From the NCBI RefSeq assembly GCF_014696355.1, contig NZ_JACJQA010000010.1, forward strand, positions 1-33,547: 33,547 bases of DNA. Reading direction: 5' to 3'. The translations under genes were made by a program, and so were the position numbers. The notes below the pieces were generated by a model. It made no database searches, was not told where the DNA came from, and saw only the letters and a list, made by a program, of their open reading frames with translations. The stretch comes from Pseudanabaena sp. FACHB-1998. GTDB taxonomy: Bacteria; Cyanobacteriota; Cyanobacteriia; Pseudanabaenales; Pseudanabaenaceae. This document shows, piece after piece, positions 234 to 32,204 of the stretch (positions are counted from its first letter, which is position 1; each line of letters starts with the position of its first letter).

Positions 234-1349
234 ATGTCTGGATATCCGCCCACACAATTTGATTTGACTCAGCACGATCGCTATATGCAGCAATGTCTTG
301 AGTTAGCTCAACAGGCGATAGGGCAAACCGCACCAAATCCGATGGTGGGCAGTGTGGTTGTTAAAAATGGACGGGTATTAGGCAAAGGTTTTCATCCGAA
401 GGCAGGACAGCCCCATGCTGAGGTATTTGCGATTCGGGAGGCTGTGCAAACTGGAGAAGATTTAAGTGACGCAACTTTATATGTAAATTTAGAGCCTTGT
501 AATCATCATGGGCGCACCCCCCCTTGCTCTGAGGCGATCGTCCATGCAGGAATTGGTCATGTTGTGATCGGGGCAATTGATACTGATCCGCGAGTTGCGG
601 GGACTGGACGCGATCGCCTCCGCGCGGCAGGCATCAGTGTGGTTACAAGTGTCTTAGAGCAGAAATGTTTGGAGCTAAATGAGGCATTTTTTCATCGAAT
701 AAAAACGGGACTGCCCTTTGGTATTTTCAAATATGCGATGACCCTTGATGGCAAAATCGCTACCACGTCGGGACATAGCTATTGGATTACAGGGCAAGCA
801 TCACGAAATTTAGTCCATAATTTGCGAGCAAGCTGTGATGCGGTGATTACGGGCGGTAACACGGTGAGGCTTGATAATCCGCATTTGAATACCCATGGAG
901 TAAGTAAGCATTGCCCTTTGCGGGTTGTAGTTACTCAAACTTGTGAACTGCCTGAAGATGCGAATTTATGGAAGATAACAGACATAGAAAAAACCTTAGT
1001 GATTACTTTGCCTGATATTCAGTCAGGACTTAAACAGAAATTACGCGATCGCCAAGTTGAGGTTCTAGAATTAGCCGATATTTCTCCCCAAGTTGTAATG
1101 AAAGAATTGGGAAGAAGAGGATTTAATAGTGTTTTGTGGGAATGTGGGGGTAGGTTAGGGGCAGCAGCGATCAAAGCGCAAATGGTGCAGAAAATTTATG
1201 CATTTATTGCGCCTAAGCTGATTGGTGGATTTGAGGCTCCGAGTCCGATTGATGATCTGGATTTGAGATTGATGACTCAGGCAATTAATTTATCAAGAAC
1301 TCAATTCCAACAAATAGATGCGGATTTTTTAATCACTGGTTATGTCTAA
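234..1349 (+). CDS. ribD: Bifunctional diaminohydroxyphosphoribosylaminopyrimidine deaminase / uracil reductase RibD
   Basis: RibD performs two consecutive steps of riboflavin synthesis: zinc-dependent deamination of the pyrimidine formed from GTP, then NADPH-dependent reduction of its ribose. The N-terminal deaminase domain shows the HAEV zinc/proton-shuttle motif (about residue 61) and PCNHHGRTPPC with two zinc cysteines (about 89 and 98). The reductase domain begins near KYAMTLDGKIAT and includes DAVITGGNTVRLDNP. The length, 371 residues from the ATG at 234, is normal for the fused enzyme. A TTG at 225 is in frame, but the ATG is preferred because an AGG lies about 10 nt upstream. It stands alone and ends in a palindrome shared with the convergent channel gene. 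Confidence 0.93.
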   Translation: MSGYPPTQFDLTQHDRYMQQCLELAQQAIGQTAPNPMVGSVVVKNGRVLGKGFHPKAGQPHAEVFAIREAVQTGEDLSDATLYVNLEPCNHHGRTPPCSEAIVHAGIGHVVIGAIDTDPRVAGTGRDRLRAAGISVVTSVLEQKCLELNEAFFHRIKTGLPFGIFKYAMTLDGKIATTSGHSYWITGQASRNLVHNLRASCDAVITGGNTVRLDNPHLNTHGVSKHCPLRVVVTQTCELPEDANLWKITDIEKTLVITLPDIQSGLKQKLRDRQVEVLELADISPQVVMKELGRRGFNSVLWECGGRLGAAAIKAQMVQKIYAFIAPKLIGGFEAPSPIDDLDLRLMTQAINLSRTQFQQIDADFLITGYV

Positions 1350-1384
1350 ATAGAGTTGCAGCGCTTTGCGCTGCAACTCTATTT
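1348..1384. terminator. Perfect 17-bp palindrome, bidirectional terminator between ribD and the channel gene
   Basis: The arms 1348-1364 and 1368-1384 are perfectly complementary around a TTT loop. The centre is GTTGCAGCGC/GCGCTGCAAC, and the AT flanks give a T run on either strand. It sits directly after the ribD stop and 9 bp before the end of the convergent gene. The GCGC-TTT-GCGC centre recurs in other gene-end hairpins here. Confidence 0.75.
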
Positions 1385-1392
1385 AATATTGA

Positions 1393-3495: not shown

Positions 3496-3514
3496 TCGTG
3501 GCGTAGTTATTAAA

Positions 3515-3563
3515 GTGAATAAGTAAGGGTGTGGGGCAAAGCCCCACACCCTTACTTATTCAC
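3515..3563. terminator. Perfect 23-bp palindrome between convergent genes
   Basis: The arms 3515-3537 and 3541-3563 match perfectly around an AAA loop, with a GTGTGGGGC/GCCCCACAC core and AT-rich outer ends. It lies between the LpxB-related stop (3495) and the ferredoxin stop (3586) and could end transcription in both directions. Confidence 0.75.
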
Positions 3564-3585
3564 TGGGAAGTAAGTAGTTATAGAT

Positions 3586-4632: not shown

Positions 4633-4667
4633 ATAGAAATGGCGGCGCTTTGCGCCGCCATTTCTAT
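4633..4667. terminator. Perfect 16-bp palindrome at the nusB / gvpJ convergent junction
   Basis: The arms 4633-4648 and 4652-4667 pair around a TTT loop with the core GGCGGCGC/GCGCCGCC. It starts directly after the nusB stop codon. The gvpJ stop codon (4664-4666) lies inside the distal arm, so the element serves as terminator for both genes and overlaps gvpJ coding sequence. Confidence 0.75.
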
Positions 4668-5002
4668 GGATTAGGATTGGCTTCTAATTGCTTTACAGCA
4701 GCTAATTCTCTTTCCAAAAGATTGACTCTTTCTAGTAACTGTTGATTAGAAGCAAGAAGTTCTTGAGTTCTCGAAGATAAATAGGGATCGGACTCCCACC
4801 AGTTAATCCCGATTTCTTTTGCTTTGTCTACTGAGGCAACAAGCAGCCGAATCCTAATGCTCAGCAACTCCACACTGCCCACGGACACAGTGATATCACC
4901 AGCAATGACAATTCCCTTATCCAATACTCTTTCCAGAATATCGGCAAGGGAGGAGCCAGTCGTACTAGTTTTGATTGCTTGAGGTTTAAGCGCTTGAGAC
5001 AT
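4664..5002 (-). CDS. gvpJ: Gas vesicle protein GvpJ (minor shell / nucleation protein)
   Basis: This 112-residue GvpA paralogue has the conserved shell core from about residue 17: SLADILERVLDKGIVIAGDI, then SVELLSIRIRLLVASVDKAKE. After the core it continues with INWWESDPYLSS and a heptad-like helical tail (LLASNQQLLERVNLLERELAAVKQLE), the feature that separates GvpJ from GvpA. GvpJ is a low-abundance protein needed for vesicle nucleation or cone tips. Its ATG shares one base with the gvpN stop (TAATG), so the two are probably translationally coupled. It is the last gene of the cluster and ends inside the terminator palindrome. Confidence 0.9.
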   Translation of the reverse strand: MSQALKPQAIKTSTTGSSLADILERVLDKGIVIAGDITVSVGSVELLSIRIRLLVASVDKAKEIGINWWESDPYLSSRTQELLASNQQLLERVNLLERELAAVKQLEANPNP

Positions 5003-5883
5003 TAGGGTATTTGATCCAATAGTTTAGCGAGACCGAGTTCTGACTCAGGCTCACCATTACCATAACGGGAAATCAGTACATCAAAACACAAATCACGAAA
5101 GTCATTATTCTGTCCAGAAACAGGAATTTCATGCTCATGACAGATTTTGCCAATTAATAGACAAGCTCTTAAGCTCGATGCTTTGCTACATTCGACTTGG
5201 CGACGATAGCCTCGAATCAAATTGATTAACTTCAGCGCTTGAGTGCGATCGAGTCCAATCCGATTCACTAAGATTTGCTTCTCAGTTTCGATGTCCGCTT
5301 CACCAATGTTAATGGTGATCATGCGATCGAGTAATGCATCCTGTGTTGGATGCACACCTGCATACTCGTCAGGATTAGAAGTAAAGATCGCCCGAAACAA
5401 GGGATGCACCCGCACATATTCCGATTGAGAACTATCGGGCGGTAATACGATTAGTTTCTCCTCAAGAGCGCTGAGCAAGACGTTATTTACTTCAGGGCGC
5501 GATCGGTTGAACTCGTCATAAATAAGCGTGAATCCCTCTTTAGCGGCTAAAGTGAGACGAGAATCTGTCCAACTTTGGCGCAAATCATCCTCTACTTTTA
5601 AGACCGAATGGATGTAATTGTCCACGACTTTCTTACGGGAATAGCCTGAGCTAGAGCCGACCAGTTGAGACGATCGCAAATCTTCATCGCCATAGATCAA
5701 CACCATTGGTCGTCCCACCAACCCCGCAAGGTGCATGGCGAGAGTGGTTTTGCCAGTACCTGCGGGACCACGCAAATGGATTGCAAAACCTGATTGCAAA
5801 TAACGTAAGGCGCGACGAACTATTTGTTTAGTGTAGTCAGTGCTGACAAATTGACGAGCATTAGCGTGGAGAACTGTGGTCAT
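5002..5883 (-). CDS. gvpN: Gas vesicle AAA+ ATPase GvpN
   Basis: The 293-residue MoxR-type AAA+ ATPase is required for enlargement of gas vesicles to full width. Walker A is GPAGTGKT at residues 39-46 and Walker B is TLIYDEF at 119-125, followed by NRSRPEVNNVLLSALEE, typical of GvpN/MoxR. A sensor-1-like asparagine is seen in FRAIFTSNPDEYAG, and an arginine-finger region in ALLDRMITINI. Its ATG follows the gvpC stop after one base (TAAcATG), so no independent leader exists and its ribosome-binding site must lie inside the gvpC 3' end. The length is normal. Confidence 0.92.
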   Translation of the reverse strand: MTTVLHANARQFVSTDYTKQIVRRALRYLQSGFAIHLRGPAGTGKTTLAMHLAGLVGRPMVLIYGDEDLRSSQLVGSSSGYSRKKVVDNYIHSVLKVEDDLRQSWTDSRLTLAAKEGFTLIYDEFNRSRPEVNNVLLSALEEKLIVLPPDSSQSEYVRVHPLFRAIFTSNPDEYAGVHPTQDALLDRMITINIGEADIETEKQILVNRIGLDRTQALKLINLIRGYRRQVECSKASSLRACLLIGKICHEHEIPVSGQNNDFRDLCFDVLISRYGNGEPESELGLAKLLDQIP

Positions 5884-5884
5884 G

Positions 5885-7027
5885 TTATGAGCCTTCAGCC
5901 ATTTGTAGTAAGGTATTCAGAATATCAGAAGGATCGACTTTGAGAGTATTTGCGCCTTGGGCAAGCAAATCTCTAACGGTATCGCGATCGTTTACCACTT
6001 CTAACAAACTAGAGTTTGTCGATAGTTGGGAAACATAGTCAATCACAAATTGCTCGATTTTGCCTGATGTTTTAGGATTTTCCTTAGGTGTTTCCTTGGG
6101 TTCTTCCTTCACTTCCACAGACTTGGCTGCTGGCTCTGGAGCTTTTACAGTAGTTTCCGCCTTAGCACTTTTCTTACTAGGCTTAGATGGAGACTGCTCC
6201 GCTACCTTGGGCGCAGGCTTCACTTCAGGTTGAGGCTTAGCGACAGGGGGCGTTACGGCAACCGATCTTGCGCCAGCCCATACAGAAGCTCTCAGTTCAG
6301 AGTGGAAAGCTTGTAAATTTTGGGTTTGGGCTTCAGCTTCAGCAGTTCTCTTGGCTCCAATTTGCTCTAGAGAATCTCGGACATTTGCCGTGCGATCGCT
6401 GGCTTCCTGCACTCTTGATGCAGCATCTTGCTGTCCTTGGGAGATGCGTTGCTTGTTAATAGCTTGAATTTGGGCGGCGGTAGCTGAGGCTCGGTCTTCA
6501 GCCTCCCTAGTTCTGAGTTCAGATGCTAGCTTGGCGCTTGCTAAACGCTCCTTGGTTAGATCTTCAATCTGCATCTGGGTTAAGGCTACTCGCTCTTGCA
6601 TTACTTGCTGACGCTGTTCGCTAGCCGCTTTACCAGCTCGAATTCTTGCCTTGTGAATATGTTTTAGTTGCGATCGCGTTTTAAAAGTACGAGTTCTGAC
6701 TTCTTGAGAGCGATTTTCACTATCTTCTACAGATTGTTCTTTGCGGCTAATATTAAGTTTTAGCAAATACTCGGAAACCTGACTAGCACGATGCTGGAGT
6801 TCATCCAGTCGCGCTTCTAAGGCATTTTCCGCGATCGCCTGTCTACCCTGTTCCCATGCCAGACGTGTTTGCTCAGCATGAGCTAAATACTGAGCAGTAG
6901 CTTCAGATTGAGCTTGCAAATCTTTTTCTCTCTTTTGCCGAGCTAGTTCTTGCTCTGCCAAAAAGTCCGCCCGTTCTTGTAATCGTCTCTGCCTTGCTTC
7001 TGCAAACCCTTGCATCAAAGAAGCCAT
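5885..7027 (-). CDS. gvpC: Gas vesicle outer-surface protein GvpC with six 33-residue repeats and an extra C-terminal domain
   Basis: GvpC clamps the outside of the vesicle shell and raises its collapse pressure. The N-terminus MASLMQGFAEARQ leads into 33-residue repeats that I can register at 47-79, 80-112, 113-145, 146-178, 179-211 and 212-244. Arginine is constant at repeat position 16 (R62, R95, R128, R161, R194, R227) and usual at position 1; residues 14-46 may be a decayed seventh. The cap AFHSELRASVW matches where classical GvpC (about 190 residues) ends. Here about 120 further residues follow: a Lys/Pro/Glu/Ala linker (257-320) and a predicted-helical domain (321-380). A GAGGAT ribosome-binding site lies 7 nt before the ATG. 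Confidence 0.85.
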   Translation of the reverse strand: MASLMQGFAEARQRRLQERADFLAEQELARQKREKDLQAQSEATAQYLAHAEQTRLAWEQGRQAIAENALEARLDELQHRASQVSEYLLKLNISRKEQSVEDSENRSQEVRTRTFKTRSQLKHIHKARIRAGKAASEQRQQVMQERVALTQMQIEDLTKERLASAKLASELRTREAEDRASATAAQIQAINKQRISQGQQDAASRVQEASDRTANVRDSLEQIGAKRTAEAEAQTQNLQAFHSELRASVWAGARSVAVTPPVAKPQPEVKPAPKVAEQSPSKPSKKSAKAETTVKAPEPAAKSVEVKEEPKETPKENPKTSGKIEQFVIDYVSQLSTNSSLLEVVNDRDTVRDLLAQGANTLKVDPSDILNTLLQMAEGS

Positions 7028-7325
7028 AACGTTATCCTCAAATTCATGCTTTCAAATCAAATCTTCAAACTGCCTATGCCAAAACCTAATAAAGCAAATC
7101 GCTTATCCCAAATTAATTGTCATTAATTCTCTGAAAATTTTTCATTAATCCCCCTCCCCACCATATAACTACCCTGCTAAAAATTTACTGCTTGTTCAAT
7201 ATTAATTGTTTAACATTAAATTGACAGAGTAATTTTTTAGTGAGAAGGGAGTAAAAATAAATCGGCAGACTAATCTATTGTTTAGCAGTCTACTACTTAG
7301 TATTTATTACTAAGAGCAAACTAGG
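7028..7325 (-). promoter_or_regulatory. gvpA-gvpC spacer with a 7-bp AT-rich stem-loop behind gvpA
   Basis: This 298-bp non-coding spacer starts 1 nt after the gvpA stop. A perfect stem CTTAGTA/TACTAAG (7296-7302 and 7308-7314, 5-nt loop) lies 11 nt past gvpA. In other cyanobacteria a short abundant gvpA transcript and a rarer long one are known, so partial termination or processing here is plausible, but the stem is weak. The rest is AT-rich with no feature I recognise. Confidence 0.35.
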
Positions 7326-7544
7326 CTAAGCAGCAGGTACTGCTGCCGATGCTGTAAGACCAACTGCTTCCGCATACTTGAGATATGTTTCTACAGAGGC
7401 GATAACGACACGAGCTTCGATTGATAGCAGTTCGATTCCCACCAAAGAGACTCTTACCCATGCATCAATAACAATGCCCTTATCCAAAATGCGATCAATG
7501 ACTTCCGCTAGGCTAGAGGAAGAGTTGACTTTTTCGACTGCCAT
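7326..7544 (-). CDS. gvpA: Gas vesicle major structural protein GvpA
   Basis: GvpA is the small hydrophobic protein that polymerises into the ribs of the gas-permeable, water-excluding vesicle wall. The 72-residue product is a near-canonical cyanobacterial Gvp[42 protein letters not shown], then [22 protein letters not shown], with an alanine-rich end. Only one gvpA copy is present, where several cyanobacteria have tandem copies. The start is set by a strong Shine-Dalgarno (AAGGAGA at 7553-7559) 8 nt before the ATG, matching the high expression expected. It heads the cluster and is divergent from the small membrane-protein gene at 7931. Confidence 0.96.
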
Positions 7545-7930
7545 AGTAATGTTCTCCTTGAGTTAACTATGTTCGGCTTTTAAATTCTGCCTGTGCAAAC
7601 TTTACTACACAACAGCAAAATTACTTATACTTATTTTGTACTAGTCATCTTGTATAAAGATGACATACTTAAATTCTATAATGTTTAGTGAATATCAATG
7701 ATAAACTTTCTTTAAGAGAACAATGGCTTTAAAAAATTAAATATTTTAGCTGTGAGACTAGCAATATATTTTTTGTCAAAATCCTATCGAAGTGAGCAGC
7801 TTCAATTAAAACTTAAATTGAATAGCAGATCACCTTGTCAAACGATAGAGCTTTTATTTTTCAGAACTTTATATTGATTGGTTTTCTGTCTACATATAAT
7901 TTCTATCAAATAAATTAACTCAAACAAACT
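7545..7930. promoter_or_regulatory. Divergent control region between gvpA and the small membrane-protein gene
   Basis: This 386-bp AT-rich spacer holds both upstream regions. Toward gvpA there is a -10-like TATAGAAT (complement of 7673-7680) with a TTATCA about 17 nt upstream. Between it and the gene lies a perfect dyad GTCATCTT/AAGATGAC (7644-7651 and 7657-7664, 5-bp spacer) that could be an operator or a leader hairpin. Toward the other gene there is a consensus TATAAT at 7895-7900, with TATTGA 17 nt or TTGATT 15 nt upstream. Transcription starts are inferred. Confidence 0.45.
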
Positions 7931-8178: not shown

Positions 8179-8581
8179 ACTTTAAAGTTATTTGCAAATA
8201 TTCTGGGTATTTTTCCAATGCCAGCTTTAAGTTGTTGCTTTTATTAATTCTAGTTTTTATAACTCACATTTCGCGAGTCACTGGAATATTTTTTTAACAA
8301 GAATCATTTAAAAACTTACATTTTTTTATCTTTTATGTAAACAATAACTTTGTCTAGCCAAAAGTAATATTTTTAGAACTTGGCATTATATACAAAACAA
8401 TTGTCAAAGAATAAAACAATAATTAGTAATTATTGTTTTATTCTTTATTTAATTATTGTAGTTATAGCGCTTTGCACTTTCTAAGAAATTAAGACATTTT
8501 TTAAAAGTCTAGCTTTGCAACCCTTTGTATGCCCCCAATCCTCATAGAATTGCAGCAGAAAGTTATGGAGTATAGGAACCA
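8179..8581. other. AT-rich non-coding spacer before ybeY containing a 41-nt palindrome
   Basis: I see no gene here. The notable feature is a near-complete palindrome at 8406-8446: 20-bp perfect arms around one central G, composed almost only of A and T. Just before ybeY an AGGA (about 8574) fits as ribosome-binding site for the TTG start at 8582. Confidence 0.6.
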
Positions 8582-9100: not shown

Positions 9101-9147
9101 AGATGAGTGGCGGCGCGAAACCATAAGTGCTTGGGCAAAGTAAATTA

Positions 9148-9198
9148 CCAAAACCCGTAAAGTTGCGTCCCTATGGGGCGCAACTTTACGGGTTTTGG
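9148..9198. terminator. 24-bp hairpin downstream of ybeY
   Basis: The arms 9148-9171 and 9175-9198 pair with one G-T mismatch around a TAT loop; the core is AAGTTGCG/CGCAACTT. It resembles the other gene-end palindromes and probably terminates ybeY. Directly to its right (9206-9226) lies one copy of a 21-nt sequence that also borders the nested palindrome at 14534. Confidence 0.65.
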
Positions 9199-9205
9199 TT
9201 GGTAA

Positions 9206-9278: not shown

Positions 9279-9337
9279 AAGGCTTAATACCAAAGCGCAA
9301 AATGGCGGAGCCATTTTGCGCTTTGGTATTAAGCCTT
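9279..9337. repeat. Perfect 28-bp palindrome between ybeY and dgkA
   Basis: The arms 9279-9306 and 9310-9337 are fully complementary around a GGA loop; this is the longest perfect stem in the window. It is 179 bp past ybeY and not adjacent to a gene end. Its right arm (GCCATTTTGCGCTTTGGTAT) is closely related to the arm at 32170-32190, so it looks like a member of a dispersed family rather than only a terminator. Confidence 0.7.
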
Positions 9338-10003: not shown

Positions 10004-10044
10004 AAAACAATGGGTGTGCGGCTTGGTCGCGCACCCATTGTTTT
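10004..10044 (+). terminator. 17-bp hairpin behind dgkA
   Basis: The arms 10004-10020 and 10028-10044 pair (one G-T) around a 7-nt loop, with a GGGTGTGCG core and a run of T at the right end. It is 28 bp after the dgkA stop and fits an intrinsic terminator on the plus strand. Confidence 0.75.
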
Positions 10045-10257: not shown

Positions 10258-13200
10258 ATGCTGCTATCCATCTCTGACTTCTTTATCAGACGACCTGTAT
10301 TTGCAACAGTATGTTCTGTCATCATCACCCTCTTGGGAACAGCCTGTATCTTTATTTTGCCTGTTGCCCAATACCCTGAAATTACGCCTCCCAAGGTAAC
10401 GGTGACTGCAAACTACGTTGGCGCAAATGCTGAAGTGGTCGAATCGACAGTTACTAATATTCTCGAAAGAGAACTCAATGGAATCGAAGGAGTTCGTTAC
10501 ATTACCTCTACTAGTGCCAATAATGGGACTAGTTCGGTTAACTTAGTTTTTGATTTAGGCAAAAACAAAGATATTGCGGCTGTGGATGTGCAGAATCGTG
10601 TCTCCACCGTCCAATCACAATTGCCTGGCCCCGTGCAGCAGACTGGCGTGAGGGTTAGCAAAGAATCTTCAGGTTTTCTCTTTGCGATCGGGGTGTATGC
10701 CGAAAAGGGCGAATATGACGATCTTTATTTGAGTAACTATGCTGACCTTTATATTGTCGATGCCATTAAGAAGGTCAAGGGAGTTGGTAACGTCATTATT
10801 TTTGGTGAACGCAAATATGCGATGCGGGTATGGCTCGACCCTAATCGACTATCAGCGAGAGGTTTGACTGCACAGGATGTTGTAGGGGCAATCCAAAAAC
10901 AAAACATACAGGTAGGGGTTGGGCAAATTGGTCAGCAACCCAATCTCCCCGATCAGCAATATCAACTATCAATTTCCGCAACAGGTAGGTTAAAAAGTAC
11001 TGAGGAGTTCTCAGACATTGTGATCAAAACCGCTACCGATGGCTCACTTATTAAGCTTCGGGATGTCGGACGAGTAGAATTGGGCGCAGAGAACTATGGT
11101 TCTACTTTGAGATTTAACGGTACTCGTGGGATTGGGCTAGGTGTTTCGCAATTGCCTGATGCTAATGCTTTGGATGTGGCAAAGGCAGTAAAACATGTCC
11201 TAGAGGATTTAAAACCCACTTTTCCCCCCGGATTAGATTATGAAGTTGCTTTCGACACGACTAGTTTCATCGAAGCAGGAACTGAAGAAGTAATTATTTC
11301 TCTATTGATTGCGATCGCGCTGGTAATCGTGATTATTTACCTGTTTTTACAGAATTGGCGTTCAACCCTAATTCCTGCGATCGCGATTCCCGTTTCCTTA
11401 ATTGGGACGTTTATCTTTATTAAACTGCTCAATTTCAATATTAATACTCTGACTCTATTTGGGTTGACCCTCGCGACAGGGCTGGTGGTAGATGATGCGA
11501 TCGTGGTGGTTGAGGATGTGACGCGCCGCATTCAAGAAAAGGGTGAAACCCCCATTAAAGCGGCGATTTCGGCAATGAATGAATTGCAAGGGGCGGTAAT
11601 TGCGAGTTCCTTAGTACTGATCGCGGTGTTTGTTCCTGTTGCCTTCTTTCCGGGAACCACAGGACAGTTATATAAGCAATTTGCGTTGACGATCGCTTTT
11701 TCGATTACTGTTTCTACCTTCAATGCGTTGACACTTTCCCCTACTTTGGCGGGTTTATTGCTTAAGCAGGAAGCCCCAAGGAGTAATTGGTTTTTTGATC
11801 GAGTCAATTGGGTAATTGATGGCACACGCAATAACTATGAATGGTTGCTAAAAAAGGCAGCTAATCTCAAAGGCATAATTCTGATTTTGTTTATCTGTTC
11901 GCTTTTCCTCACCTATTGGGTTTACAACATCGTTCCTAAAGGATTTTTGCCACAAGAGGATCAAGGCTATTTCATTACGATTGTCCAAGCGCCTGAAGGT
12001 GTATCGCTAAATTACACCGAAAAAGTTTTGGAAAATATCGAAGGGATTATGCGTAGTAAGGATGAAAAGACAGGACAACCTGTTTATCCTGAAATCTCCA
12101 ATATTTTTGCGATCGCAGGCTTTAGTTTTAGTGGCAACACTCCCAACAACGGGATTGTGTTCACTACGCTCAAGCCTTGGAAAGAGCGATCGCGATCGGC
12201 TGAGGCGATCATTGGCGGCTTTACCCCTCAACCCTTCGGCTTACTACCTTCTTTAATTTCGATTAAAGAAGCTTTTGTAGTTCCTTTTCCACCGCCAGCC
12301 ATTCAGGGCTTAAGTAACTATGGTGGCTTTGAATATCAATTACAAGATAAGGCAAATCAAGGTTTTCCTGTAATCGAGCAGACGATGGGCGCTTTATTAG
12401 GAAAAGCCAGTACCTATCCCGATCCTAATCGTCCGATGCTAGCGGGCTTGCGTCCAAACTTTAATGGCAACACTCCCCAGTTGACCGTTGAGGTCGATCG
12501 CGTGAAGGCAAATGCTTTGCAGGTATCTTTGCAAGACATTTACAACACCTTACAGACTTTGCTCGGTTCTCAATATGTCAATGACTTCAATACCTTTGGA
12601 CGCACCTATCGCGTTTATGTACAAGCCGATGCTCAGTTCCGTGCTAATCCCGACGATATTAATAAGCTCTATGTGCGATCGGCTAAGGGACAATTAATCC
12701 CTCTTAGCAATCTCGTCAAGGTTTCTCAAACCATTGGACCATCGATTATTAATCACTATAATCTGTTCCGTTCTGTGCAAATCACTGGTAACACCGCCCC
12801 CGGAGTTAGTTCAGGACAAGCGATCGATGTTATGAACAAAATTTCTAAAGAGGTTCTTCCAAAGAGCTTTAGCTACGAATGGTCGGGCTTATCTTTAGAA
12901 GAGATTGGCTCTGGTAGTAGTGCTTTCTTTATCTTTGGGTTAGGAATCGTTTTTGTATTTTTAGTACTCGCTGCTCAATACGAAAACTATATCGATCCCA
13001 CGATCATCATGCTAACAGTGCCGCTTGCGGTATTGGGAGCACTTTTAGCGGTAATGGTGCGTGGGTTTTCCAATCCCAATTTTGTTAACGATGTTTATAC
13101 CCAAATTGGTTTGGTTATGCTAATTGGGATGGCAAGTAAAAACGCAATTCTGATTGTGGAATTTGCCAATCAGTTGCATGAAGGCGGTTTGAGTATTACG

Positions 13201-13608
13201 AAATCTGTAATTGAAGCGGCTCAGCAAAGATTACGCCCGATTCTGATGACTGCTTTCTCGACTATTATTGGCATCTTTCCACTCGTAATTGCCACAGGTG
13301 CAGGAGCCGCCGCCCGTCAATCAATTGGTACGGCGGTCATGGGTGGTATGTGTGTAGCCACATTTTTAAGTCTCTTTGTTGTACCCGTTCTATATATTTT
13401 TGTGAAAACTATTGAAAAGAGCGTAAAGCTAGATGTTCACAAACCACCTAGTGAAAACATCTCTGAGCTTGCCTTAGCCCATGACTATGCAAACGGTCAT
13501 GAGCACCATTTACATAGAGATTCACTAAATGGCGATCATATTCATCCTAATCAAAATGATTCCAGTGAATCATCTGATAAGCCACATCCAGATAATGTCA
13601 ATTCATGA
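10258..13608 (+). CDS. RND-family (HAE1/AcrB-like) efflux pump inner-membrane transporter
   Basis: The 1116-residue proton-driven multidrug/solvent exporter contains the full RND duplication: TM1 at the N-terminus (DFFIRRPVFATV), a large periplasmic porter domain, TM2-6, a second porter domain and TM7-12. The proton-relay residues are present: the aspartate pair D412/D413 in GLVVDDAIVVVED (TM4) and K961 in GMASKNAIL (TM10). The porter sequence (AQYPEITPPKVTVTANY) is typical of the HAE1 subfamily. No membrane-fusion protein or outer-membrane channel gene is adjacent, so partners must be elsewhere. After TM12 comes a polar tail (about 1054-1116) with nine histidines. The ATG at 10258 is the natural family start. 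Confidence 0.93.
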   Translation: MLLSISDFFIRRPVFATVCSVIITLLGTACIFILPVAQYPEITPPKVTVTANYVGANAEVVESTVTNILERELNGIEGVRYITSTSANNGTSSVNLVFDLGKNKDIAAVDVQNRVSTVQSQLPGPVQQTGVRVSKESSGFLFAIGVYAEKGEYDDLYLSNYADLYIVDAIKKVKGVGNVIIFGERKYAMRVWLDPNRLSARGLTAQDVVGAIQKQNIQVGVGQIGQQPNLPDQQYQLSISATGRLKSTEEFSDIVIKTATDGSLIKLRDVGRVELGAENYGSTLRFNGTRGIGLGVSQLPDANALDVAKAVKHVLEDLKPTFPPGLDYEVAFDTTSFIEAGTEEVIISLLIAIALVIVIIYLFLQNWRSTLIPAIAIPVSLIGTFIFIKLLNFNINTLTLFGLTLATGLVVDDAIVVVEDVTRRIQEKGETPIKAAISAMNELQGAVIASSLVLIAVFVPVAFFPGTTGQLYKQFALTIAFSITVSTFNALTLSPTLAGLLLKQEAPRSNWFFDRVNWVIDGTRNNYEWLLKKAANLKGIILILFICSLFLTYWVYNIVPKGFLPQEDQGYFITIVQAPEGVSLNYTEKVLENIEGIMRSKDEKTGQPVYPEISNIFAIAGFSFSGNTPNNGIVFTTLKPWKERSRSAEAIIGGFTPQPFGLLPSLISIKEAFVVPFPPPAIQGLSNYGGFEYQLQDKANQGFPVIEQTMGALLGKASTYPDPNRPMLAGLRPNFNGNTPQLTVEVDRVKANALQVSLQDIYNTLQTLLGSQYVNDFNTFGRTYRVYVQADAQFRANPDDINKLYVRSAKGQLIPLSNLVKVSQTIGPSIINHYNLFRSVQITGNTAPGVSSGQAIDVMNKISKEVLPKSFSYEWSGLSLEEIGSGSSAFFIFGLGIVFVFLVLAAQYENYIDPTIIMLTVPLAVLGALLAVMVRGFSNPNFVNDVYTQIGLVMLIGMASKNAILIVEFANQLHEGGLSITKSVIEAAQQRLRPILMTAFSTIIGIFPLVIATGAGAAARQSIGTAVMGGMCVATFLSLFVVPVLYIFVKTIEKSVKLDVHKPPSENISELALAHDYANGHEHHLHRDSLNGDHIHPNQNDSSESSDKPHPDNVNS

Positions 13609-13660
13609 TTAAAAAGAAGAGAGTTGCCGTACAAATTACTGCAACTCTCTTCTTTTTAAT
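13608..13660. terminator. Perfect 20-bp palindrome at the RND pump / pdxJ convergent junction
   Basis: The arms 13608-13627 and 13641-13660 pair perfectly around a 13-nt loop. It begins at the last base of the RND stop codon and its right arm contains the pdxJ stop (13656-13658). The T runs on both outer sides suit termination in both directions. Confidence 0.78.
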
Positions 13661-14369: not shown

Positions 14370-14734
14370 AGCTTTCTCCTCAAAAAATCTTTAAATTTTA
14401 TTCATATCCTTTACTTTACGACAACAGAGTCCTGATTAAGCTCTAAAAATTAAATGTCGCAAAATGCGAATCCTCACTGTAAAAGGCTTTGCATTTTATA
14501 CATCTCAGATCAAGTTAGCAATAAAGTCTTTATTAAGTAGCTAGGCATAATTAAAATCCAGACCTAAAAACCTACAGCGCACGCGCAGCGTGCGCTGTAG
14601 GTTTTTAGGTTTTATATTTAATTGCGCCTAGCTACTTAGCGTAATTGTGAGCAAGTAGCGATTGCTTACTCATACTAGACAAAAACAAACAAATTCGCGT
14701 AGGATCAAAAACCCGACAAAAAATCCCGAAGACA
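14370..14734. other. Intergenic region between divergent pdxJ and the PLP enzyme gene
   Basis: This 365-bp spacer holds no gene that I can support. Its centre (14534-14638) is a nested palindromic element described separately. The rest is AT-rich, and I could not define a convincing promoter for either flanking gene. Confidence 0.6.
14534..14638. mobile_element. Nested palindromic MITE-like element
   Basis: The outer inverted repeat, 12 bp perfect, is AAGTAGCTAGGC (14535-14546) with GCCTAGCTACTT (14626-14637). Inside it the 16-nt flanks are partly complementary (AATTAAA). The centre is a perfect 22-bp hairpin (14563-14584 with 14588-14609, loop GCA). The left end matches a 21-nt sequence at 9206-9226 at 19 of 21 positions. 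There is no coding capacity. A small non-autonomous mobile or REP-like element is the best reading; no target duplication was established. Confidence 0.5.
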
Positions 14735-16003
14735 ATGACCTCTGAAAAAATGAAACTGCTAGTTGAAGAAGCAGTGACAGCCCTCGTACCTACTTTCGCC
14801 AAAATCGACCTCCATGTAAAGGGAAATCTCGAACGGGTTTTGCAAGCTTTTCGCGATCATCGGGTTGGCGCACATCATTTTGCGAGTGTTTCAGGCTATG
14901 GTCATGGGGATATGGGGCGCGATGTCCTTGATGCAGTATTTGCTCAAGTTATGGGAGCGGAGTCCGCCGCCGTCAGAGTTCAGTTTGTCTCAGGAACCCA
15001 TGCGATCGCCTGTTGTTTATTTGGCATTTTGCGCCCCCTTGATGAGCTTTTGTCAGTTGTAGGCGCTCCCTATGACACCCTCGAAGAAGTAATTGGCTAT
15101 CCTTTAGTTAACGATCCGCAAGCGGCGGCAGGTCAAGCCATTAACTATGCGGGTTCGCTTAAAGACTTTGGAATTACCTATCGCCAAGTGGAACTCACGG
15201 CTGAAGGGGGCGTAAATTGGGAAGCCTTAGCCAAAGCCGTAAAACCACAAACCAAGATGGTTTTAATTCAGCGTTCCTGCGGCTACGCTTGGCGACAAAG
15301 CCTATCTATCGAAGATATTGAAAGAATCATTCAACTAGTAAAGCAACAAAATCCTCATACGGTCTGCTTTGTGGATAACTGCTATGGCGAATTTATTAGC
15401 GATCGCGAACCCACGGCGGTCGGAGCCGACATCATCGCTGGCTCATTAATCAAAAATCCGGGAGGCACGATCGCGACGGCGGGAGGATATGTTGCAGGCA
15501 AAGCCGAGTATGTGGAACTAGCGGCTCAGAGGCTCACTGCCCCCGGAATCGGACGAGAAGGAGGTGCAACCTTTGATCTAAATCGTCTCCTCTTTCAAGG
15601 TTTGTTCCTTGCGCCACAAATGGTGGGAGAAGCCATGAAAAGTAGCCATCTCGCCGCCTATGTTTTTGATAAATTAGGCTACAGTGTCAAGCCGCTACCT
15701 TACGAGCCAAGACGCGACATTATCCAAGCAATTCAATTAGGAAACCCCAAAAAACTTATTGAATTCTGTCGCAATCTTCAGCAATTTTCGCCCATTGACT
15801 CCTACGTTGATCCAGTACCGGGGGAGATGCCGGGATATGTGAGTCAGTTGGTTATGGCTGGTGGCACTTTTATTGACGGTAGTACCTTAGAGCTTTCGGC
15901 GGATGGCCCCTTGCGCGAGCCTTACACAGTATTTCTGCAAGGGGGAACCCATTGGACACATTTAGCGATCGCCCTTGAAAATTTCAAAATTGAAGACTTA
16001 TAG
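14735..16003 (+). CDS. Methionine gamma-lyase family PLP-dependent enzyme ('aluminum resistance protein' family)
   Basis: This 422-residue fold-type I PLP enzyme belongs to the family often annotated as methionine gamma-lyase-like or aluminum resistance protein (PF06838 type). The N-terminal block SGYGHGDMGRDVLDAVFAQ is diagnostic. The cofactor region includes QFVSGTHAI (phosphate-binding), CFVDNCYGEF with D214 contacting the pyridine nitrogen, and the Schiff-base lysine K240 in GSLIKNPGG, followed by the glycine-rich GGYVAGK. The true substrate is unproven; C-S lysis of a sulfur amino acid is a family-level guess. The ATG at 14735 gives the normal length. It is convergent with the REC-EAL gene across a 26-bp palindrome. 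Confidence 0.88.
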   Translation: MTSEKMKLLVEEAVTALVPTFAKIDLHVKGNLERVLQAFRDHRVGAHHFASVSGYGHGDMGRDVLDAVFAQVMGAESAAVRVQFVSGTHAIACCLFGILRPLDELLSVVGAPYDTLEEVIGYPLVNDPQAAAGQAINYAGSLKDFGITYRQVELTAEGGVNWEALAKAVKPQTKMVLIQRSCGYAWRQSLSIEDIERIIQLVKQQNPHTVCFVDNCYGEFISDREPTAVGADIIAGSLIKNPGGTIATAGGYVAGKAEYVELAAQRLTAPGIGREGGATFDLNRLLFQGLFLAPQMVGEAMKSSHLAAYVFDKLGYSVKPLPYEPRRDIIQAIQLGNPKKLIEFCRNLQQFSPIDSYVDPVPGEMPGYVSQLVMAGGTFIDGSTLELSADGPLREPYTVFLQGGTHWTHLAIALENFKIEDL

Positions 16004-16011
16004 ATATAGCT

Positions 16012-16066
16012 AAACCCCAAGAAAAAAGTTGCGGCGCTTAGCGCCGCAACTTTTTTCTTGGGGTTT
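16012..16066. terminator. Perfect 26-bp palindrome between convergent genes
   Basis: The arms 16012-16037 and 16041-16066 are fully complementary around a TTA loop, with core GTTGCGGCGC/GCGCCGCAAC and outer A/T runs. It lies 8 bp after the PLP enzyme stop, and its right arm reaches the stop codon of the REC-EAL gene (16065-16067). Confidence 0.78.
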
Positions 16067-17360
16067 ATTGGGAAAATATATTATTGATGCCATTGCTATA
16101 TCTTTCTAGACAAATATGAGTAGTATTACTTTCTAAAAGATTAGAAGCAGCTTCAGCATTAAGAGATTTAGCAAATAGATAGCCCTGTCCATAACATTCC
16201 GAGAGCGAAGAAGCAAAAAGTTCTTTGAGCAATTTAAGCTGCTCATCAGTTTCTATTCCTTCAATAATCACTGTTTTGCCTAAGGTAAACGCTAGAGAAG
16301 CAATAGCTTTTACGATTACCCACTCTTTTTTTACAATAAATGATCGATCTATTTTCAAAACATCGATCGGGAAGTCGGTAAGCCGTCGTAATGATGAATA
16401 TCCCGTACCGAAATCATCTATACAAAACTGAATACCTAATTCTTTTAGTTGATGGAGAATTTGTAAAGTGCGATCGCGATCGCCCATGACCGCACTTTCT
16501 GTAATTTCAATTTTTAAGCAATTAGGATTGATTTCATAGTCAACTAATATTTTGCTGACATCTTTTACTAAATTAAACCCTATGAGTTGCTTGGTGGAGA
16601 CATTCACACTTATTGTCAAATCTTTATACTTCGGGAAATATTTCTTCCAAATTTGTAACTGCTTGCAAGCAGTTTTAATTACCCAAATTCCTATAGGATT
16701 AATCAAATCAGTCGTCTCTACAAGATCAATGAATTCAGAAGGTTGAAGTAATCCCCGTTGAGGATGATTCCAGCGAATTAAAGCCTCAAACCCTGTAATT
16801 AAATTAGTCTTAAAATTAACAATTGGTTGATATTCTAAAACTAGTTCTTCGTTAATTAAGGCTGATTTTAATTCTAGGTATAAATTCCAATCAAATCCAG
16901 TTAGATGAGATATTTCTTGTTGGAGGCTAATATTCTGGCTCTCTAAAAGCCGAGTTTGTTCAAGCAATTCAGCCTGTAGTGATGCCACTCGTAAATGTAC
17001 TTCTACCCTAGCCAGAACTTCTACAGGATGAAATGGTTTATTAATAAAATCTATACCACCTACAGAAAATGCTTCTAACTTCTCTTCTGCATTATCAATA
17101 CCACTAATAAATACTATGGGAATTTCTTGGGTTTTTGAATTGTTTCTTAAAATTGTACATACTTCAAAACCATCCATATCTGGCATTTTAATGTCAAGTA
17201 AAATCAGGTTTGGAATGTGAGTATCGGCTAAATTAATTGCCGAAAATCCGTTTGTTGCTTCCAAAATTTTATAGCCTTGATTACCTAACATATGAGAGAG
17301 CAATTTGAGGTTAAATTCTGTATCATCAACGATTAATATGGTGGATTTATCTTTACTCAT
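16065..17360 (-). CDS. Response regulator with cyclic-di-GMP phosphodiesterase (EAL) output domain
   Basis: The 431-residue cytosolic protein has an N-terminal receiver domain (about 6-122), with acidic pocket D12/D13, phosphoacceptor D56 (LLDIKMPDMDG) and K108 (INKPF). A coiled linker (about 125-152) and an EAL domain (about 160-410) follow. The EAL domain carries the motifs of active enzymes: E192-A-L-I-R-W, VNVSTKQL, ITESAVMGD, IDDFGTGYSSL, LKIDRSFI and EGIET. There is no GGDEF domain, so phosphorylation by an unlinked histidine kinase probably controls c-di-GMP hydrolysis. No kinase is adjacent. It diverges from the DUF3086-type gene, with 281 bp between them. Confidence 0.92.
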   Translation of the reverse strand: MSKDKSTILIVDDTEFNLKLLSHMLGNQGYKILEATNGFSAINLADTHIPNLILLDIKMPDMDGFEVCTILRNNSKTQEIPIVFISGIDNAEEKLEAFSVGGIDFINKPFHPVEVLARVEVHLRVASLQAELLEQTRLLESQNISLQQEISHLTGFDWNLYLELKSALINEELVLEYQPIVNFKTNLITGFEALIRWNHPQRGLLQPSEFIDLVETTDLINPIGIWVIKTACKQLQIWKKYFPKYKDLTISVNVSTKQLIGFNLVKDVSKILVDYEINPNCLKIEITESAVMGDRDRTLQILHQLKELGIQFCIDDFGTGYSSLRRLTDFPIDVLKIDRSFIVKKEWVIVKAIASLAFTLGKTVIIEGIETDEQLKLLKELFASSLSECYGQGYLFAKSLNAEAASNLLESNTTHICLERYSNGINNIFSQ

Positions 17361-17641: not shown

Positions 17642-19132
17642 ATGGAGTCCGATCAACAGCCTGTAGAAGTGGAAAATTCTAATTTTTTAAATTCATCTGT
17701 ACAAGGAGAGTCCCCCGAAGCGATCGCCCTATCCATTAATTTAGATGAGTCTAAAACTGAAAATACTGCCAATACCGAAGATATTGCCGATATTTTGGAA
17801 ATCTCTACTGAAAATTTGACATCGTCATCGCCAGAACATAACGAAGTAGCTACATCAGCGCCAGAGGTAATTGCTGATGATGTATCCCAAAATGAAGCTG
17901 AGCCTGAGCCATTAGCTCCACTTTTAGCCATTATTGAGCAGCTCAAACAGCAAGAAACTGAGCTAAAAGCGGAACTAGAACATCTCAAAAATGCTAAAAC
18001 TAAAATTCTCCAAGATCAGATAGATGATTTGCAGTCAGGTATTATTCGCCTAGCTCAAGCAGATGTGGCAAGGCTCGAATACCAAAAACAAGAACTACAA
18101 GCGGCGATCGCTGTTCTCGAAAAACGCAAAGATCGTCTAGACAAGGAAATGACCAGCACCTATGCAGGTGCTTCGCAAGATATTGCGGTACGAGTCCAAG
18201 GTTTCAAGGACTATTTAGTGGGGAGTTTACAAGATTTAGTCGCTAGTGCTGAAAAGCTAAATCTGATCGCCCCCCCAGCTAAGGAAGTGGAGCCTGTAGT
18301 AGTTTCTGAAAAGAAACCTGCTAAAGAAATTGAACCTCCACTTTTGTCGGAGCAAACCTTTGCCGAATACAAACAACGAGTCGATCAGCTTTTAGAACGC
18401 TATCGTACTCTGCCCGATTATTATGGGCCTGCATGGAAATTACGGCGTACTTTTGAGCAGGTTCATGCCGATCGCGTTTCCAAATGGTTTTTTGAGCAGT
18501 CGGGACGTGGTGCAATCCGCACGATGGGAACTCGTTTGCAAAATATCTTGGTGACTTCGGCAGCCATTTCGGTCTTAAAAGCCGTGTATGGAGAAAAATT
18601 ACGGGTATTAGTACTCGCGACTTCTCCCGAGCGTCTGGGCGAATGGCGACGTGGATTTCAAGATTGTTTGGGCTTGACTAGAGAGCATTTTGGCTCAGAC
18701 AAGGGTATTGCCCTATTTGAAGATCCTGAACCTCTAGCGACTAAGGGCGATCGCCTTGTCAAGGAAGGGCTAAGCCCTTTAGTGATTATCGACGAATCAG
18801 AGGAATTAATCTCCGTCGATCTATTGCGATTTCCCCTGTTAATTGCCTTCGGCGGCGCACCTGATACGAAGACGGGCGCTCCTTCAAGCTATATCAATCG
18901 CGATTCAAATCGTGACACTCCCAATAATCGCGATAATCGTGACTATAACCGTGAGTCAACTCGCGATTATCCCAAAGACTTTAGCAACGATTATGCGCCT
19001 AAAGATCAGCGCAATCGCGATTACGGAACAAGAGACTATTCAAGTCAAAATCGTGATTATGGTCGTGATAGTGGCAGCTATGGTGGTGGCAATCGGAGCC
19101 GAAATAATCAAGATTCTGATTGGGATTGGTAA
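17642..19132 (+). CDS. DUF3086-type cyanobacterial protein with coiled coil and Arg/Asp/Asn/Tyr-rich tail
   Basis: The 496-residue protein has no known function. The first ~95 residues are acidic and disordered-looking (many Glu, Ser, Asn). A coiled coil follows (about 97-180: LKQQETELKAELEHLKNAK). A globular domain (about 235-403), with YRTLPDYYGPAWKLRRTFEQ and VSKWFFEQSGRGAIRTMGTR, resembles the cyanobacterial DUF3086 family as I remember it. The last 93 residues (404-496) are low-complexity, built of NRD/RDY-type units (nine RD pairs) and ending GGGNRSRNNQDSDWDW. That composition suggests an RNA-binding or condensate-forming tail, which is inference only. It ends before two palindromes shared with the Gdt1 genes. 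Confidence 0.75.
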   Translation: MESDQQPVEVENSNFLNSSVQGESPEAIALSINLDESKTENTANTEDIADILEISTENLTSSSPEHNEVATSAPEVIADDVSQNEAEPEPLAPLLAIIEQLKQQETELKAELEHLKNAKTKILQDQIDDLQSGIIRLAQADVARLEYQKQELQAAIAVLEKRKDRLDKEMTSTYAGASQDIAVRVQGFKDYLVGSLQDLVASAEKLNLIAPPAKEVEPVVVSEKKPAKEIEPPLLSEQTFAEYKQRVDQLLERYRTLPDYYGPAWKLRRTFEQVHADRVSKWFFEQSGRGAIRTMGTRLQNILVTSAAISVLKAVYGEKLRVLVLATSPERLGEWRRGFQDCLGLTREHFGSDKGIALFEDPEPLATKGDRLVKEGLSPLVIIDESEELISVDLLRFPLLIAFGGAPDTKTGAPSSYINRDSNRDTPNNRDNRDYNRESTRDYPKDFSNDYAPKDQRNRDYGTRDYSSQNRDYGRDSGSYGGGNRSRNNQDSDWDW

Positions 19133-19148
19133 TTATCGACCCGAAAAA

Positions 19149-19224
19149 GAATAGCGGCGCTTTGCGCCGCTATTCAAAACCAATAAAGCAAAAGGTTGGC
19201 TTTGCCAACCTTTTGCTTTATTGG
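19149..19224. terminator. Two tandem palindromes between the DUF3086-type gene and the Gdt1 genes
   Basis: Hairpin one has 12-bp arms 19149-19160 and 19164-19175 (loop TTT, core GCGGCGC). Hairpin two has 21-bp perfect arms 19180-19200 and 19204-19224 (loop TTT, core GGTTGGC). Each probably serves one of the two convergent transcripts. The stop codon of the minus-strand gene (19218-19220) is inside hairpin two. Confidence 0.75.
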
Positions 19225-19985: not shown

Positions 19986-20016
19986 AAAAAGAAGCGCTCT
20001 ACGAGCGCTTCTTTTT
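19986..20016 (-). terminator. Intrinsic terminator of the ribosomal operon
   Basis: The arms 19986-19999 and 20003-20016 (14 bp, core AAGCGCTC/GAGCGCTT, loop TAC) lie 6 nt beyond the infA stop. Read on the minus strand the stem is followed by a run of seven T. This marks the operon end at infA. Confidence 0.85.
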
Positions 20017-22240: not shown

Positions 22241-22476
22241 AACTAAACTTACCTCAAAGCTATTGGTTATAGAGTAAGCAATGCTTAGCACTCCCTACCC
22301 AAACATATTTAAATATTGTAGTTCCACGAAGATCGCGATACATGCCGATCAAATGGAGAGCAAGCTGCACAAACTACCTGCGCCATAGGTTTGGCGATTT
22401 TATACTAGCTACCCTAAAACAACAAAAGAGAATATGTGGCGAAGCGCTCAACACTTCGCCACATATTCTCTTGTTT
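22241..22476 (-). promoter_or_regulatory. rplO-secY spacer with internal hairpin and possible secY promoter
   Basis: A 19-bp perfect stem (22426-22444 with 22454-22472, 9-nt loop, core GTGGCGAAG) lies 4 nt past the rplO stop. Read toward secY it is followed by a T-rich stretch, so it could attenuate transcription or protect the rplO mRNA end. Farther on, TACAAT (22315-22320 complement) and TATAAC are possible -10 boxes for secY; neither has a good -35. Confidence 0.5.
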
Positions 22477-22932: not shown

Positions 22933-23077
22933 TTTTTTTGTGACAATAACGAGACTATGCAACGTTATATAGGTTAATTAATTTTTTGTGACAATAACAG
23001 CGCAACATGTTGTTATTGGATTAATTAAATTTTTTAATACAATAACGGCGCATAGCACCGTTATTGTATTAATTGAA
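22933..23077 (-). repeat. Three degenerate tandem hairpin repeats between rpsE and rplO
   Basis: Three units of about 48 bp follow each other (about 22933-22981, 22982-23029, 23030-23077). Each has a T run, a GACAATAAC-like arm, a variable loop, a GTTATT-like arm and TTAATTAA. The third forms a 15-bp perfect stem (23034-23048 with 23058-23072) and the second an 8-bp stem (22992-22999 with 23011-23018); the first has decayed. The rpsE stop (23069) lies inside the third. It probably acts in RNA processing or attenuation. Confidence 0.55.
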
Positions 23078-32132: not shown

Positions 32133-32204
32133 AAACCCTCTAAGGGTTTTAAAAACACAAAATAGCGTAGCCATTTTGTGTTTTGGTATTTAGTAGCTAG
32201 GCAT
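32133..32204. repeat. Hairpin pair with dispersed-repeat end
   Basis: Stem one is AAACCCT/AGGGTTT (32133-32139 with 32143-32149). Stem two is AAAACACAAAAT/ATTTTGTGTTTT (32152-32163 with 32173-32184), with a GC-GTA-GC tip and one mismatch. The right arm and what follows (GCCATTTTGTGTTTTGGTAT) resemble the arm at 9310-9330. Next to it TAGTAGCTAGGCAT (32191-32204) repeats the end of the element at 14534. It may also terminate the DUF29 gene on the minus strand. I see nothing more in 32205-32302. Confidence 0.5.

Follow-up and report, generated by a model that had tools for sequence, protein, structure and literature searches.

Perfect intergenic hairpins throughout one cyanobacterial genus, with loops inverted between sister genomes and arms probably kept matched by template switching during replication

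Small inversions associated with hairpins were reportedly described in chloroplast DNA by Kelchner and Wendel in 1996. In plastids such inversions are found between relatives and typically span 4–50 bp (PMC12371153). In yeast, inversion of a spacer together with homogenisation of its arms is regarded as an outcome of template switching for which fork direction matters, and ten spacer inversions are given for yeast coding genes (PMC8604942). Patterns of both kinds, loop inversion and arm homogenisation, are also known from RNA genes, with 69 loop-inversion-only patterns (PMC8794818, Table 1), and template-switch mutation at quasipalindromes is described for E. coli (PMC7202029). Among bacterial palindromes, REP elements have stems of 5–13 bp and a GTAG or CGTC tag (PMC3733652), and inverted repeats near terminators have a raised density of SNVs in their spacers (PMC13155455). 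The hairpins described here share with the plastid cases their association of small inversions with hairpins and their occurrence between relatives; they differ in having mainly 3-nt loops, in numbering thousands per genome (by extrapolation) and in belonging to a free-living cyanobacterium. Among the open-licence papers listed we saw no earlier account of these hairpins in Pseudanabaena, which is weak evidence of absence, and none of loop flipping across whole bacterial genomes; the main text of a survey that covers perfect inverted repeats from 118,019 genomes (PMC13155455) has no word that starts with 'cyanobacteri' or 'Pseudanabaena'. The mechanism that we propose is already known; what is new, as far as that literature goes, is the density of the hairpins and the rate at which they flip.

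The DNA analysed (the window; 33,547 nt, contig C2 of the 4.78-Mb source genome, Pseudanabaena sp. FACHB-1998) had been given a first-pass annotation that listed eight gene-end palindromes with 12–28 bp arms and 3-nt loops, all perfectly paired except the one at 9148. A hairpin scan located all eight, with arms of 18, 24, 16, 25, 28, 27, 12 and 21 bp; each loop does have three nucleotides, and the sole exception to perfect pairing is a single T.G pair at 9147..9199. The core proposed for them, (G)GCGC-TTT/TTA-GCGC(C), is present at 1347, 4633, 16011 and 19149, and is missing at 3514, 9147, 9279 and 19180.

Judged from ORFs and domain matches, the window hairpins lie mostly at convergent gene ends, with some at tandem junctions and one in a divergent gap. 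The perfect hairpin at 1347..1385 (arm 18, loop TTT) overlaps the stop of a ribD-like gene at a convergent junction, and the one at 3514..3564 (arm 24, loop AAA), where the palindromes were first remarked on, is also at a convergent junction. A third perfect hairpin, 4633..4667 (arm 16, loop TTT), lies immediately 3' of the nusB stop, where a gas-vesicle gene converges on nusB; this neighbour has a Gas_vesicle Pfam match at 4664–5002, and a second similar small gene is visible by eye at about 7320–7540 (window 4664–7560). The tandem junction after ybeY holds two hairpins, 9147..9199 (arm 25, loop TAT) and the perfect 9279..9337 (arm 28, loop GGA). At 16011..16067 (perfect, arm 27, loop TTA) the junction is convergent, and the perfect hairpins 19149..19175 (arm 12) and 19180..19224 (arm 21), both with loop TTT, share the junction 3' of the ORF at 17642–19132.

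Eight further intergenic hairpins were detected in the window; read on the plus strand, four of them contain one mismatch. They include a perfect A+T-rich hairpin 5' of ybeY (8406..8446, arm 19, loop AGT), a hairpin with two G.T pairs between diacylglycerol kinase and AcrB-type genes (10004..10044, arm 19, loop TTG), one with one mismatch and a loop of five where the AcrB-type gene and pdxJ converge (13608..13660, arm 24), a perfect hairpin whose arms contain an A-tract and a T-tract (19986..20016, arm 14, loop TAC) and one with one mismatch at 32152..32184 (loop GTA), whose arm resembles the dispersed AAAATGGC family by eye. The remaining three qualify the 'gene-end' location, which holds for most sites: the perfect hairpin at 14562..14610 (arm 23, loop GCA) is in the divergent gap between pdxJ and a PLP-enzyme-like gene (weak matches) and not at a gene end, and two on the minus strand lie inside the ribosomal-protein operon, one after the rplO stop at the rplO-secY junction (22426..22472) and one after rpsE at the rpsE-rplO junction (23034..23072). 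The gene at 14735–16003 has only weak partial matches, to PLP enzymes of the methionine gamma-lyase type. A 10-bp item at 12248, inside a coding ORF, was left out of the hairpin count. Predicted RNA folding energies for the 16 sites, on both strands, range from −11 to −47 kcal/mol; a scan of the window against Rfam gave nothing at gathering thresholds, and a tRNA search of the window gave none.

Hairpins of this kind occur throughout the genus. Counting perfect arms of at least 12 bp around 3–8-nt loops, we found 459 per Mb over 0.8 Mb of the source genome (298 per Mb in the window alone) and none in 0.4 Mb of second-order Markov sequence by the same criteria, a very large genome-wide excess of the sort that the first-pass annotation had suggested looking for. 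Seven other genomes of the genus, sampled at 40–200 kb each, had 345–550 perfect hairpins per Mb, and three other genera of the same family, each sampled over 120–140 kb, had 0, 57 and 0 per Mb. Extrapolation from the sampled density gives probably about 2,000 hairpins per genome. The loop has three nucleotides in 293 of 367 hairpins from the 0.8 Mb, and in a stricter set (n = 341) arm length runs up to 38 bp, with a median of 20 bp. The exact 13-mer GGCGCTTTGCGCC, present in 111 copies in the source genome (reversed control, 0), was detected in all 26 genus genomes, the source included, and in 0 of 12 genomes from other genera.

The placement of the stricter set was judged against ORFs from a simple, length-greedy caller: 116 of the 341 hairpins are in convergent, 145 in tandem and 58 in divergent gaps, and 22 are in called ORFs, 11 of these no more than 60 bp from the ORF end. 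This amounts to 6.38, 2.15 and 1.24 hairpins per intergenic kb in convergent, tandem and divergent gaps, respectively, and to 0.86, 0.42 and 0.43 hairpins per gap. The median distance from stop codon to hairpin is 24 bp, and 64% of 377 distances are 50 bp or less. Averaged over 278 hairpins with 3-nt loops, the 3' arm is mainly G/C at positions 1–7, beyond which T is abundant and G scarce as far as position 19 or so; the 5' arm, as its mirror image, is A-rich. Despite this average, many individual window sites lack a clean T-run.

A G+C stem and, in the averaged profile, a T-rich 3' arm, together with proximity to stop codons and the highest density in convergent gaps, are features shared with intrinsic terminators. 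The difference is in the arms, which are longer (median and maximum as above) and are perfectly paired through the T-rich part and past it. In sequence the hairpins look like bidirectional intrinsic terminators with the A and T tracts inside the stem, and most of them probably serve as bidirectional transcription ends. Cyanobacteria lack Rho, and canonical intrinsic terminators end only 22% of units in S. elongatus (PMC13289151); the genus studied here is one Rho-less lineage whose convergent gaps average nearly one strong palindrome each.

Could selection alone account for such arms? The hairpins would then be long bidirectional terminators or mRNA-stabilising structures, kept perfect by purifying selection and ordinary compensatory mutation. 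Their concentration at convergent gene ends, their closeness to stop codons and the T-rich, G-poor outer 3' arms are all consistent with this explanation. Yet it does not predict that the arms should match far past the G+C stem, and it is at odds with the 58 hairpins in divergent gaps and the 22 inside called ORFs. These observations, together with the sister-genome comparisons below, make it an unlikely account of the whole, even though selection probably acts as well at some sites.

Loops were compared between sister genomes. Of 90 hairpins in the pair G013/G014, 87 could be anchored and 86 gave gap-free alignments, with flanks diverged at 106 of 20636 positions (0.5%). The loops were identical in 55 of the 86, exact reverse complements in 26 and otherwise changed in five; among three-base loops alone, 21 of 57 were exact reverse complements. 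As a control, only 16 of 20,630 overlapping 3-mers in the flanks had turned into their own reverse complement. Five non-complementary inner pairs were inverted along with their loops (e.g. T.C to G.A), and the event is therefore an inversion of the hairpin's inner part. Without the five otherwise changed loops, we estimate about 101 flips per unit of per-site substitution (CI 57–199), or 147 (CI 72–609) for three-base loops alone. The published cases of template-switch mutation that we considered, which these hairpins resemble in exact loop inversion, arm homogenisation and a probable connection with the direction of replication, come from hotspots in reporters or from scattered events; here almost a third of the loops are inverted at half a percent of divergence. 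Selection on the hairpins does not predict such exact inversion, and the raised spacer SNV density near bacterial terminators (PMC13155455) could be the same process elsewhere. A hairpin with loop TTC/GAA, GTAATTGTGTTGCGGGCGC, has near-unchanged copies at several places in G013 (C77, C1 and C119); at some of these copies the loop is inverted relative to G014, and at others it is not.

Exact inversions were seen in three genome pairs. In G029/G022, eight of 52 loops were exactly inverted, 27 were the same and 17 otherwise changed; in G019/G023, two or three of seven loops were exactly inverted, depending on the direction of comparison. The share of inversions is thus smaller in G029/G022 than in G013/G014 despite a tenfold greater divergence, and a simple clock does not fit. 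Saturation with biased orientation, together with other changes in the loops, would explain the lower share.

Palindromes are hard to sequence and assemble. An artefact of assembly or library preparation, in which loop orientation is ambiguous and flips are errors, would draw on this difficulty. Flips were not commoner at the longest arms, though (3 of 19 with arms up to 15 bp, 17 of 42 with 16–20 bp and 6 of 25 above 20 bp), exact inversions occurred in three pairs, and errors would yield neither compensated changes in the arms nor a strand bias that is mirrored between oppositely oriented syntenic contigs. We give this explanation hardly any credence.

The strand bias concerns the orientation of loops TTC, TAC, AAT and TAA versus their reverse complements, a set picked after the counts were seen. 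In the source genome (G000), TTC-type loops are split 108:37 by chromosome strand. Split by the sense strand of tandem genes they show no bias (70:78), which rules out gene direction as the source of orientation: loop orientation in the source genome tracks chromosome strand rather than gene direction. AAA and TTT loops had no clear strand bias. Detection repeated on one contig read in reverse complement gave nearly mirrored counts (110 and 108 hairpins). In mirror-syntenic regions, TTC-type loops were split 18:30 in G029 versus 38:10 in G022 (Fisher P = 6.5e-5), the bias in G029 alone having P = 0.11; in the small samples of G019, G023, G012, G009 and G014 it was not significant.

A less dependent test used the positions of GCGC-TTC/TAC-GCGC cores across complete G029, taking the first 100 of 149 places. 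The cores on C1 change from mostly plus (41 of 57) to mostly minus (13 of 43 plus) near 1.68 Mb, with a permutation P of 0.0013; the remaining 49 of the 149 places are split 24:25. The switch near 1.68 Mb resembles a replichore boundary. A corresponding test in G014, on a different core with 48 places, showed no regional switch (P = 0.66). The process that would most naturally act on loop orientation along a whole strand is replication. Fourfold GC skew was uninformative for assigning replication direction.

The arms of sister hairpins were then compared pair by pair. For G029/G022, compared over 400 kb of each genome at a flank divergence of 5.8%, we kept those of the 133 anchored hairpins that were ungapped and had similar arms (52); 80 gapped ones and one unlike were dropped. 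Across their 939 arm pairs there were 39 single-sided changes, versus 109 expected from the flanks, in a count biased downward because query-genome hairpins were picked for good pairing, and 35 compensated doubles versus 1.05 by chance. If mismatches were corrected by copying an arm chosen at random, half of them would revert and half would become doubles, and the doubles should therefore equal half of the missing singles. This model predicts 35.0 doubles in G029/G022, where 35 were seen, and 31.9 in the reciprocal comparison, where 37 were seen; for the two directions of G019/G023 it predicts 8.9 and 7.6, and 8 and 8 were seen, with the proviso that reciprocal comparisons share most hairpins with the forward ones and are not independent. 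By chance, 0.27 doubles rather than 8 would be expected in G019/G023. In the arms of G013/G014, single changes were not depleted (21 versus 16.5 expected), and compensated doubles numbered only two (versus 0.01 by chance); arm correction is visible only at larger divergence.

Two-sided, pairing-preserving changes of this kind, which the first-pass annotation had proposed looking for at the same junctions in sister strains, are thus present at 6–8% divergence. Since a mutational model predicts their observed amount at that divergence, compensatory change is not in itself proof of selection on RNA structure. Transversions make up 19 of the 35 doubles in G029/G022 (flanks, 278 of 675; difference P = 0.16); a single G.U intermediate therefore cannot account for those 19, and selection with ordinary compensatory mutation does not predict them. 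In G019/G023, transitions account for seven of the eight doubles; a G.U path would yield these too, and this count favours selection.

Together, the loop inversions and the arm changes of sister genomes suggest how the arms remain perfect. The reading that we hold with good, though not full, confidence is that the hairpins are a genus-wide population, most of them probable bidirectional transcription ends and some spread by mobility, in which template switching during replication keeps the arms perfect and inverts the loops. As a hairpin is being copied at the fork, the growing strand would occasionally switch to the other arm or to the other strand. A switch and return across the centre would leave the loop inverted along with any inner mismatches, and a switch that spans a mismatch would copy one arm onto the other; a new point mutation would then be either erased or made two-sided. 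That the agent is replication template switching and not another inversion process is something we infer. Of the three causes that the first-pass annotation had put forward for near-perfect arms (recent origin, conversion between arms and selection), conversion is the best supported, by the loops and the arm changes of sister genomes.

Another process probably contributes to the number of hairpins. Single-linkage clustering of the arms of 351 hairpins (perfect ones only, from 0.8 Mb and the window) placed 140 in 14 families, versus 13, 2 and 4 members in three column shuffles; 211 are outside any family, 31 of these having arms too short for comparison. Hairpins 4633..4667 and 16011..16067 belong to the largest family, which by eye has conserved outer ends and a loop orientation seemingly independent of the orientation of these ends. 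Hairpin 9279..9337 belongs to the AAAATGGC family, which has 21 sampled members, and 9147..9199, itself outside the clustering, is similar by eye to perfect hairpins that form a family of five at other places in the genome. Between G029 and G022 we found eight distinct presence/absence sites of 56–130 bp (one G022 site was listed twice), six of them edged by short direct repeats by eye.

Some of the hairpin stock is accordingly MITE-like, probably spread as small non-autonomous mobile elements: the conserved terminal sequences and the presence/absence sites, six of the eight with direct repeats by eye, resemble those of MITEs. The near-perfect hairpin centre and the majority without a family are unlike them. 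Like these hairpins, the REP elements of the REP/RAYT system are short extragenic palindromes, dispersed in the genome, whose stem variants are compensated (PMC3733652). No GTAG or CGTC tag was seen by eye in the flanks of the four hairpin families listed. The Y1 transposase was matched in 22 of 26 genus genomes and is missing from G009, G016, G022 and G024, all four of which have the hairpin core; RAYT as the only mobiliser is thereby ruled out.

A mobile palindrome amplified too lately for its arms to have diverged would produce just such families, with conserved ends in the largest and with presence/absence sites between sisters. It would not produce the 211 hairpins of no family. Members of a family, moreover, differ from one another at matched positions on both arms (in a clustering of perfect hairpins only), and orthologous hairpins with compensated arm changes last across 6–8% divergence. 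Recent origin as the sole cause fails on this last point and is contradicted by one hairpin of the ribosomal-protein operon that is present in every genome of a set of 18. We consider it very improbable; as the only cause recent spread is largely refuted, and it stands as a second process.

The set of 18 comprises the window and 17 loci (L139–L155) whose ribosomal protein S5 is 86–96% identical to the window's, from 14 Pseudanabaena records, Phormidium tenue FACHB-1050 and two unclassified cyanobacterial genomes; it may partly coincide with the genus genomes used above, and the two sets are not independent. The rplO-secY hairpin (22426) is in the window and in all 17 relatives, with similar outer arms and varying loops by eye, and with compensated differences in CG2_30_44_21, O153 and FACHB-1277; it was not found in L156–L159, the four examined of 63 other loci. 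A G.U pair near the loop is present in 15 of the 18 genomes (counted by eye). This persistent pair shows that correction is incomplete at some sites or that selection maintains the pair; like the presence of the hairpin in all 18, it counts in favour of selection and, with the concentration at convergent ends, is why we think that selection probably acts too at some sites.

At the rpsE-rplO junction (23034), the same arm type was seen by eye in 11 of the 18 genomes and unrelated arms in the same position in six, with no hairpin in FACHB-1277. The window's nusB-end hairpin (4633) was found at none of the other 24 genus loci (the stop codon was not located in two of these). Sister strains with unrelated, imperfect terminators, together with no excess of hairpins, were named beforehand as the outcome that would speak against the palindromes being unusual. 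At the nusB end, seven of the 24 loci have a different, unrelated hairpin within about 100 nt of the stop, at least one of them perfect in five of the seven, and the excess is as given above.

Work on template switching at inverted repeats usually relies on engineered reporters or on rare events in alignments. This genus offers hundreds of native reporters per Mb, with a flip rate that is measurable and an arm-correction rate that apparently is so too; strand dependence, loop-sequence dependence and genetic control are therefore directly testable.

As to genetic control, the loops might instead be inverted by a site-specific recombinase or a hairpin nuclease, for which an additional SbcCD-like pair would be a candidate. 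A second SbcD match above the cut-off was found in 25 of 26 genus genomes, G018 being the exception; among 12 others none clearly had one, and two of these gave marginal split matches. A second full-length SbcC match was found in four of four genus genomes tested and in none of four others, all SbcC matches being below the curated cut-off. The association comes from one lineage, and G018 is without the second SbcD match. Loops between many different arm sequences flip, so that no recognition site is evident, and site-specific inversion would leave the arms unhomogenised. Such an enzyme as the agent seems to us highly doubtful next to template switching during replication.

A bolder extension of the template-switching reading, which we offer tentatively and would not bet on, is that each genome holds some two thousand hairpins that flip continually, with orientation at an equilibrium set by the direction of replication. 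The loops would then be a fast record of fork polarity, and the genus-specific second SbcCD-like pair may have evolved along with the load of hairpins, either tolerating or driving it. Loss of SbcCD as the reason for palindrome tolerance was rejected, as SbcD was matched in 38 of 38 genomes and the genus has an extra one. Loss of ExoVII was likewise rejected: its large subunit (XseA) was matched in 26 of 26 genus genomes. XseA had no match in nine of the 12 genomes from other genera of the family. The second SbcD-like and SbcC-like loci are on different contigs in the source genome (G000:C41:45209-45970 and C56:21333-24335) and are adjacent in G029 (C1:198414-202635).
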